Below, piece after piece: positions 13,575 through 16,313 of a stretch of DNA of 42,694 nucleotides (positions within the stretch are counted from its first letter, which is position 1; each line of letters begins with the position of its first letter). The stretch comes from Gemmatimonadota bacterium (GTDB lineage Bacteria; Gemmatimonadota; Gemmatimonadetes; Longimicrobiales; Gaopeijiaceae). Location of the stretch: NCBI GenBank assembly GCA_030550695.1, contig JAUQOX010000002.1:1-42694 (forward strand). The letters run 5' to 3'. A program made the translations under genes and the position numbers. The notes under the pieces are model-generated. The model saw only the letters and a program-made list of their open reading frames with translations, searched no databases and was not told the origin of the DNA.

Positions 13575-14609
13575 ATGGAGAAAGCTGGACTTAGCTCTCA
13601 GACACCCCGACCGGTCGAGGCGGCAACGGCTTCCGGGAGGGCGAACCGTTTTTCCGGGTCCGGGAAGAGTGTGCAAGGGGAACGCCCCGGCCCACGGCGG
13701 GACCCCCCCCGGGCCGATCCCCGACCGGCCCGGGACCTGGCTCCCGAAACCGACGAGCTGGGAAGCCATGTCTCCACCGCCGGGGGCGTGGAGCTGGCTC
13801 CCCGGAGGGCCCGGGAGATCGGGGCCGTGTGCCTTCAGCTCTTCACCAAACCGCCCAACCGGTGGACCGAGCCCACCTGGGATCCCGACGTCCCCCTTCG
13901 GTTCGCCAGGGCGAAGGCGGAGGAGAAGATCCAAGTGGTGGGATCCCACGATTCGTACCTCATCAACCTGGCCTCTCCCGATCCCGCCCTCTGGCAACGG
14001 TCCGTGGAGGCGTTCCGGCGCGAGCTGGCCCGATGCGCGGCCCTGGAGCTGGATTTCTTGGTGACCCACCCGGGCAACGCCACGGACGGGGATGTGGAGG
14101 GGGGACGGGACCGGAACGCCGAGGGTCTGGCCAGGGCCCTGGCGGAGGTCCGGGGTGGGACCCGGGTTCTCCTGGAGCTCACCGCCGGGGGAGGATCCAC
14201 GCTGGGGGGGTCGTTTGAGGACCTGGCGGCCCTTCTGGCGCGGATCCCCCCTCCCTGGAGGGACCGGGTGGGGATCTGCTTCGACACGTGCCACGCCTTC
14301 GCGGCCGGTTACGACCTGGTGGGGGACTACGAAGGGGTGTGGGCGGCCTTCGAGGCCGCCCTGGGACTCGACCGGCTGGCCCTGTTCCATCTCAACGACT
14401 CCCGCTACCCCCTGGGATCGCGGCGGGACCGGCACGAGCATCTGGGCGAGGGAACTTTGGGGGTGGAGCCCTTCCGCAGGATCCTGCAAGACCCGCGTTT
14501 TTCGGCCATCCCCAAGATCCTGGAAACCCCCAAGGAGCCGGACCCCGTCGCCAACGACCGGAAGAACCTGGCCTTCCTTCGGGCCCTTCGCTGGGGGGGC
14601 GGAAGCTGA
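13575..14609 (+). CDS. nfo: Deoxyribonuclease IV (endonuclease IV family)
   Basis: GSHVSTAGGVELAPRRAREIGAVCLQLF, FLVTHPGNA, GICFDTCHAFAAGYDL, LFHLNDSRYPLGSRRDRHEHLGEGTLG, ILETPKEPD. The N-terminal ~55 aa look non-native, so the true start is probably internal. Confidence 0.9.
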   Translation: MEKAGLSSQTPRPVEAATASGRANRFSGSGKSVQGERPGPRRDPPRADPRPARDLAPETDELGSHVSTAGGVELAPRRAREIGAVCLQLFTKPPNRWTEPTWDPDVPLRFARAKAEEKIQVVGSHDSYLINLASPDPALWQRSVEAFRRELARCAALELDFLVTHPGNATDGDVEGGRDRNAEGLARALAEVRGGTRVLLELTAGGGSTLGGSFEDLAALLARIPPPWRDRVGICFDTCHAFAAGYDLVGDYEGVWAAFEAALGLDRLALFHLNDSRYPLGSRRDRHEHLGEGTLGVEPFRRILQDPRFSAIPKILETPKEPDPVANDRKNLAFLRALRWGGGS

Positions 14610-14774: not shown

Positions 14775-14803
14775 TGGACGCCCGCGCCGCAGGAGGGTAT
14801 ATT
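14775..14803 (+). promoter_or_regulatory. Putative promoter driving the 14811-15000 RNA
   Basis: TATATT (14798-14803) in an otherwise very GC-rich region. The -35 is weak. Confidence 0.35.
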
Positions 14804-14810
14804 GCTTTCG

Positions 14811-15003
14811 GGTGGGGTCGGGAGGCTCCGTTACTGAGCCAACACTGAAGAAGCCGGGACTGTTTCCTTCGGCGGACGTCCTGCCCCCGCAGAGGGGACT
14901 TCGGAACCCGGAGGGAAGTCACCAAACGTGATGGCCCGGGCTTCAGCAACCCCCTCCCGATTCCTCCCTGGGGCCGGCATCTGCGGGATGCCGGCCCTTT
15001 GTT
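14811..15003 (+). ncRNA. Candidate structured non-coding RNA or folE leader, family unknown
   Basis: Nested complementary helices: 14817-14823/14855... outer partner 14955-14961; GGCTC 14824-14828 / GAGCC 14836-14840; CTGAAG 14845-14850 / CTTCAG 14941-14946; CTGC(CCCC)GCAG 14881-14892. A terminator hairpin follows. No convincing ORF. Confidence 0.45.
14971..15003 (+). terminator. Intrinsic-type terminator
   Basis: Perfect 11-bp stem GGGCCGGCATC (14971-14981) - TGCGG - GATGCCGGCCC (14987-14997), followed by TTTGTTCTT. Confidence 0.75.
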
Positions 15004-15170
15004 CTTCCCCGGGGGCCCTCCGGTCGGCGGGGCCGCAGGATCCCCCCCCACAGTCTTGGGAGGGGCAGGGTGGGGGATCCCTGTCCCCGCCCGGGGGTAG
15101 GGACCGAGACGCCGGTTCGAGGGCCGGCCCCCCCGTAGCTTTCTGAACGCCAACTCCGGAGCGACACGGC

Positions 15171-15800
15171 ATGGCCAAGACGGTACGGCCCGAGGCGGGC
15201 CCTGGGAGGCTCGATACCACGGACCTGTCCAAGGTCCCTTTCCGGGAGCTGGTCAGGGAGATGATCCGGCGCCTCGACCCCGACCCCGACAGGGAAGGCC
15301 TGGCCCGGACCCCCGAAAGGGTGGAGAGGGCTTTCGGGTTCCTGACCAAGGGGTACCGGATGACCCCCGCCGAGGCCATCGGGGATGGGATTTTCGAAGA
15401 ACACCATCACAACATGGTGCTGGTGAAGGACATCGAGCTCTACTCCCTTTGCGAGCACCATCTTCTGCCCTTCTTCGGCAAGGCCCACGTGGCCTACATC
15501 CCCGACGGGAAGATCATGGGCCTGAGCAAAGCGGCCCGTCTGGTGGAGATGTATGCCCGCCGCTTCCAGGTCCAGGAACGCCTGACGGAGCAGATTGCCC
15601 AGGCCATTTGGGACTCCATCCAGCCCCTGGGGGTCGGAGTGGTGGTGGAGGCCTACCACTTGTGCATGATGATGCGGGGGGTGGAGAAGCAGAACTCCAA
15701 GACCATCACCTCGGCCATGAGGGGCTCCTTCCTGCGGGATCAGAAAACCCGCGACGAGTTCCTGCGCCTTTCCATGGCCGGCCACGTGCTGTTGTCCTGA
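15171..15800 (+). CDS. folE: GTP cyclohydrolase I
   Basis: [97 protein letters not shown]. Confidence 0.97.
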
Positions 15801-15902: not shown

Positions 15903-16313
15903 ATGTACACCATTGCAGTTCAAGCGCACTACGATGCTGCGCATTACCTCCGGGATTACCAAGGCAAGTGTGCCCGTCTCCACGGTCATCGCTACGTGGT
16001 GGAGGTGGCCCTGCGGACGCGGGAAGTGGGGCCCAAGGGCATGGCCTGTGACTTCACCGACCTCAAGGCCTTGTTGAAGGAGCTTGCCGAGCGCTTCGAC
16101 CATCAGAACCTGAACGAGATTCCCCCCTTCGACGTGCTGGAAAGCACGGCGGAAAACCAGGCCCGCTATTTCTTCGACGAGATGAAGAAGCGCCTTCCGC
16201 CCCACCTGGCCGACGGGCTCCTGTATGCCCGGGTCATGGAAAGTCCCGGGCAATGGGCGCAGTACAGCCCCCTCCCCGACGGAGGGCCCATCCCCCCCTT
16301 CGGGGGGGCTTGA
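15903..16313 (+). CDS. queD: 6-carboxytetrahydropterin synthase / 6-pyruvoyl tetrahydropterin synthase family (QueD-like)
   Basis: YDAAHYL...KCARLHGHRYVVEVAL, DFTDLKALLKELAERFDHQNLNEI, ESTAENQARYFFDEM. Confidence 0.9.
   Translation: MYTIAVQAHYDAAHYLRDYQGKCARLHGHRYVVEVALRTREVGPKGMACDFTDLKALLKELAERFDHQNLNEIPPFDVLESTAENQARYFFDEMKKRLPPHLADGLLYARVMESPGQWAQYSPLPDGGPIPPFGGA

Follow-up and report, generated by a model that had tools for sequence, protein, structure and literature searches.

A probable, highly diverged 6S RNA (SsrS) gene ahead of folE and queD in Gemmatimonadota

The regulatory cycle of 6S RNA has been described as one of mimicry and release: the RNA poses as an open promoter, holds the holoenzyme blocked, and comes free when pRNA synthesis unwinds helix P2 (PMC8876501). 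For B. subtilis and Aquifex, the next step was inferred to be pairing of the P2 3' strand with the distal 5' side of the bubble, giving the central bubble collapse helix (PMC8876501). Linkage of the 6S RNA gene to ygfA (fau) has been reported for Proteobacteria (PMC9130861). A literature search found no paper joining '6S RNA' with Gemmatimonadetes or Gemmatimonas, an earlier mention in subscription papers being possible.

The window considered here is the whole stretch of DNA analysed, 42,694 nucleotides from contig JAUQOX010000002.1 of a Gemmatimonadota bacterium. The original prediction had described an unassigned, structured non-coding element between an endonuclease IV gene and folE, and had offered two readings of it, a terminator riboswitch responsive to pterins or 7-deazapurines and a free-standing sRNA. 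The analysis places this element as a new, diverged Gemmatimonadota member of the known 6S RNA family, unrecognised there by Rfam and occurring about once per genome.

The RNA gene and its covarying rod

Positions 14810-15007 read as an independent RNA gene, equipped with a promoter and a terminator of its own, transcription being predicted to start at about 14810. The gene and its neighbours are as follows.

13575-14609, forward strand: upstream gene of the endonuclease IV family (nfo; Pfam AP_endonuc_2, 2.5e-54)
14775-14803, forward strand: predicted sigma-70-type promoter, -35 TGGACG and -10 TATATT with a spacer of 17; the scanned 1 kb holds no other promoter-like site, and 0.0 are expected in shuffles
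14810-14968, forward strand: predicted 6S RNA rod without terminator, ~159 nt, matched by covariance model R1 (see below) at 138.6 bits
14970-15007, forward strand: predicted intrinsic terminator, hairpin GGGGCCGGCATCTGCGGGATGCCGGCCCT (stem 14970-14998) and T-rich tail TTGTTCTT
15171-15800, forward strand: downstream gene folE, GTP cyclohydrolase I (Pfam GTP_cyclohydroI, 9.7e-74)
15903-16313, forward strand: downstream gene queD/PTPS (Pfam PTPS, 2.6e-36)

The structured element, promoter box and terminator that had been claimed are thus all present. The folding energy of the element beats shuffled sequences (z = -3.6, with 1 of 200 shuffles equally good), and the terminator has a stem of 13 pairs with a loop of 3, being the sole terminator-like site in the 1 kb scanned, where the scan expects 1.2 by chance. 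The window's rod ends with P1 and is followed by the terminator alone, whose tail adds ~30 nt to the ~159 nt of the rod; an equivalent hairpin and U-tract occur in 78 of 100 loci. The -10 box is conserved at six of six positions, and at a similar distance, in 18 of 27 family-f1 loci. Of the two readings offered, the free-standing sRNA is the right one.

By DNA search alone, 20 of 38 related genomes proved to have one copy each. Correctly oriented, these relatives share TATATT, TTATTGAGCCAACAC, GAAGCCGGGACTGACTCC, GACGTCACGCCCC, GGGGAGGTCACC and GGGCTTCAATAA, and the shared motifs are flanked by a closing stem that is variable in sequence and complementary. Covariance model R1, built from the 20 relatives, matches 284 of 297 Gemmatimonadota genomes and 111 of 117 genera, nearly always in one copy; the single match in the window's own genome is the window element. 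Two matches each were seen in G024, G028, G032, G285, G299 (family f3) and G262, and the second copies are possibly 6S paralogues as in B. subtilis; L022:1479-1643 is an example from these genomes. Four hits in other phyla to a pattern with 5 spacer bases in place of the proper 4 are matched nowhere by R1 and were taken as chance.

The consensus architecture consists of a closing stem P1, a helix P2 (UGAGCC/GGCUUCA), a central bubble and an interrupted apical arm.

14814-14825, forward strand: closing stem P1, 5' strand, pairing with 14953-14964
14832-14840, forward strand: helix P2, 5' strand TACTGAGCC, also predicted pRNA template
14841-14857, forward strand: central bubble, 5' side (AACAC...GAAGCCGG)
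14858-14920, forward strand: apical arm, with covariation-derived pairings 14858-14861/14917-14920, 14865-14873/14907-14915, 14877-14880/14900-14903 and 14884-14886/14895-14897
14921-14938, forward strand: central bubble, 3' side (ACC...CCCG), unpaired in the consensus structure
14939-14948, forward strand: helix P2, 3' strand GGCTTCAGCA, with 14850-14855 as alternative partner
14953-14964, forward strand: closing stem P1, 3' strand, pairing with 14814-14825

This rod structure is backed by covariation. In a structure-free MAFFT alignment of the relatives, two-sided changes occur at 23 pairs against 11.9 in shuffled controls (0 of 500 reaching the observed value), and the covariation score is 0.375 against 0.194 shuffled, with slid-partner controls at or below 0.130; phylum-wide, such changes are seen at 36 of 41 pairs. 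Covariation among relatives, which the original prediction had proposed to check, is strong. For P1, two-sided changes were found in 9 of 12 pairs in the structure-free alignment and in all 12 phylum-wide. P2 pairs are 96.3% formed across 100 sequences, with two-sided changes in seven of nine, and constrained folds favour P2 in 17 of 20 sequences.

The helices drawn by eye fared unequally. P1 was correct and covaries, although it extends further than claimed. A proposed P2 of GGCTC with GAGCC is not a conserved pairing, the conserved helix being 14832-14840 with 14939-14948, and neither is the distal hairpin CTGC/GCAG; the hairpin TCAC-CAAAC-GTGA is locally possible and not more. The proposed P3 (CTGAAG..CCGGG with CCCGGGCTTCAG) corresponds approximately to the alternative helix of central bubble collapse and cannot coexist with the conserved P2. 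The set of 'compatible nested pairings' also lacked the conserved apical arm at 14858-14920, which was found by covariation.

Assignment to the 6S RNA family

Searched against Rfam at the gathering cut-off and at E = 10, the window gave chance matches only and hence no assignment, with no match to RF00013 (6S RNA) even at E = 10; its near relatives gave no convincing RF00013 match. Across the phylum, RF00013 matches occur in 35 of 297 genomes, mostly weakly, and exceed the gathering cut-off of 46.4 bits in three, one of which probably owes its match to a stray contig. The rescan with R1 covered 32 RF00013 loci, of which the phylum search had supplied 30 and the relatives search two. R1 matches coincide with 30 of the 32 on the same strand, namely L022 and 29 of L055-L084, the exceptions being L055 and L023. 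The co-located loci above the cut-off are L056 (56.6 bits) and L057 (53.3 bits). In the Rfam alignment of L056, the model segments CuGAgCCgA and GGuUCaAgg fall on UUGAGCCAA and GGGCGUCAAAA, that is, on helix P2. Because RF00013 loci coincide with R1 matches on the same strand, we regard the element as, with high probability, a highly diverged 6S RNA (SsrS) gene, so the label 'unassigned' no longer applies once relatives are used.

The assignment is transitive, running through other families of the phylum, and the window's own family is diverged beyond the Rfam model. The missing RF00013 match is a matter of detection threshold and no biological trait, since homologues elsewhere pass. Direct similarity to E. 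coli ssrS appears marginal and is too weak alone: the E. coli gene scores 4.7 bits with R1 and 9.8 bits (E 0.65) with R2, a second model of this analysis, and in a search of the 3 kb around it the sole match reported by R2 is ssrS itself, at the same E of 0.65. The window element has further features of 6S RNA genes, being a single gene in most genomes with its own promoter, and its rod of 159 nt plus terminator agrees with the 6S size of about 180-200 nt and has the 6S shape of closing stem, central bubble and interrupted apical arm. By homology, it would bind the holoenzyme of RNA polymerase with the housekeeping sigma factor.

The exceptional locus L055:1501-1694 (G289:C266) reaches 62.5 bits with RF00013 and belongs to a contig of 3.2 kb that R1 does not match, while the genome has a separate R1 copy; the contig is probably contamination in the G289 assembly. 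Other housekeeping RNAs were also considered. ARAGORN finds neither tRNA nor tmRNA in the window, and tmRNA sits elsewhere in the relatives and on another contig in the own genome. For SRP RNA, 13 of 19 genomes have a copy at another place, and none turned up in the window's own genome, which is incomplete. Across this genome and its near relatives, the bacterial small SRP RNA scores close to the Rfam cut-off or under it, 3 of 19 passing; that of the own genome may be diverged too, or absent from the incomplete assembly.

For the phylum as a whole, R1 fills a gap, with 284 genomes matched against the three in which RF00013 passes. Besides the covariance model, the work supplies a pRNA prediction and names cultured species for tests (Gemmatirosa, Gemmatimonas).

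Predicted pRNA and collapse of the central bubble

The register of the predicted pRNA was borrowed from E. coli 6S RNA (UGAGCCGAU, nt 36-44), in which we take U44 to be the start. The window has the same register as E. coli nt 36-44 (TGAGCCGAT).

14830-14843, forward strand: computed template of a predicted 14-nt pRNA, 5'-GUUGGCUCAGUAAC, with the start opposite C14843
14850-14858, forward strand: collapse-helix strand GAAGCCGGG, which can pair with CCC 14935-14937 and GGCTTC 14939-14944

The predicted pRNA starts with AUCGGCUCA in 20 loci, where the 9-mer ATCGGCTCA is the complement of E. coli 6S nt 36-44; in most other loci it is GUUGGCUCA, and in Gemmatirosa-like copies it starts with GUCGGGUCA. 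Few parts of the RNA are as well conserved as the start region beside P2, and the window RNA may be expected to template pRNA synthesis.

The potential for bubble collapse was assessed by computation. A GAAGCC(GGG)/(CCC)GGCTTC duplex beats shuffles in 26 of 27 tested family-f1 loci, which are related to one another (mean -16.1 vs -8.6 kcal/mol). Masking the 14-nt template raises the share of folds with the collapse helix from 6 of 27 (free folds) to 20 of 27. AACAC and GAAGCCGGG are almost invariant in the window's family, where, judged by sequence, the switch looks hard-wired; no compensatory changes were found in GAAGCC/GGCTTC. In other families, the helix seldom does better than shuffled sequences. 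Since the loci are related, compensatory changes are lacking and the effect is weak outside the window's family, the collapse step is put forward as a prediction.

A cycle can be proposed on these grounds. Transcription from its own promoter would give a rod of ~159 nt with a terminator tail of ~30 nt, in which P1, P2, the central bubble and the apical arm together would imitate an open promoter. By homology, the RNA would bind the holoenzyme of RNA polymerase and housekeeping sigma factor and block the enzyme in starved cells. When nucleotides return, polymerase would initiate 5'-GUUGGCUCAGUAAC in the 5' side of the bubble and P2 would be unwound. The freed 3' strand of P2 (GGCUUC) could now base-pair with GAAGCC on the distal 5' side of the bubble, a pairing whose potential was computed, and the RNA would be released.

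Gene neighbourhood, alternative readings and known systems

In 81 of 100 loci the RNA is followed, on its own strand, by a PTPS/QueD-type gene, by folE or by both, with a median gap of 115 nt from the RNA to the PTPS match; the weight that the original prediction gave to the neighbourhood was therefore fair. This queD/folE linkage is real and conserved, and the phylum is a second lineage with 6S RNA linked to folate-pathway genes. Gene order varies: PTPS comes first in many loci, whereas in the window folE precedes queD. The 19 of 100 loci with neither folE nor PTPS downstream keep the RNA, including zapA-RNA-rny and RNA-tRNA arrangements; the L022 copy (L022:1479-1643), for instance, lies directly 5' of a tRNA gene (1649-1722). 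The gene zapA is upstream in all four deep-branching loci sampled (families f8, f10 and f11). In f11, RNase Y (rny) comes next, and L058 and L062, from the deep-branching class of the phylum, have the order zapA - 6S RNA - rny; in E. coli the order is zapA-ssrS-fau.

Either genome history or coupling by read-through may lie behind the linkage. That the order 6S RNA - queD/PTPS - folE is itself functional seems rather unlikely; if it is, polymerase reading on from the 6S promoter, or set free from the RNA, would tie the synthesis of pterin/folate (or queuosine) to outgrowth after starvation, a parallel to the 6S-fau linkage of Proteobacteria.

The same neighbourhood had suggested a cis-acting riboswitch or attenuator for queD/folE, with a pterin, folate or 7-deazapurine ligand controlling the terminator, and a terminator does follow the rod in 78 of 100 loci. 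Such a device is unsupported because the RNA is mostly present in one copy per genome, persists where both genes are missing, and has terminator arms that pair with the rod like shuffled arms (5' arm -16.4 vs -16.5, 3' arm -17.0 vs -16.9 kcal/mol), a comparison in which no mutually exclusive antiterminator/terminator pairing for folE/queD was found. The element also has its own promoter, and RF00013 matches lie at the same places, leaving the riboswitch very improbable. Equally slight is the chance of an Ms1-like RNA, which would bind core RNA polymerase without sigma and template no pRNA. Ms1, a structural relative of 6S RNA, occurs in Actinobacteria, which lack 6S RNA, but it is ~300 nt long with two extra end hairpins (PMC9130861), against a rod of ~159 nt in the window; the coincidence of RF00013 loci with R1 matches and the conservation of the pRNA start region also speak against it. 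Convergence of an unrelated sRNA, specific to the phylum, on a 6S-like shape would agree with the window's own copy being unscored by RF00013, but is hardly credible given R1 homology that runs without a break between the window's family and loci passing the Rfam cut-off for 6S RNA, the motif UGAGCC at the same structural place and zapA synteny in deep branches.

Read as a 6S RNA, the element can be set beside the described systems. Like E. coli 6S/SsrS (RF00013), it is a rod with closing stem, P2, central bubble and apical arm, has UGAGCC beside the bubble, and shares with it the predicted pRNA AUCGGCUCA in many relatives and zapA upstream in deep branches; unlike it, the window copy and its family are unscored by RF00013, no long hairpin is conserved in the 3' side of the bubble, and the genes downstream of the window-type RNA are queD/folE instead of fau. 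As in 6S-1 of B. subtilis and the 6S RNA of A. aeolicus (PMC8876501), the 3' strand of P2 is predicted to be able to pair with the distal 5' bubble, whereas the collapse helix predicted for the window's family is distinct in reaching up to nine pairs and in being GC-rich and almost invariant. Ms1 of Actinobacteria (PMC9130861) has a similar 6S-like shape and an association with RNA polymerase that is presumed here, but differs in its length of ~300 nt, its extra 5' and 3' hairpins beside the central bubble and its binding of the core enzyme, and has no Rfam match here. With pterin, THF and preQ1 riboswitches the element shares its place ahead of folE/queD genes, and it differs from them in having no Rfam match and no antiterminator, in its independent promoter and in not being tied to folE/queD.
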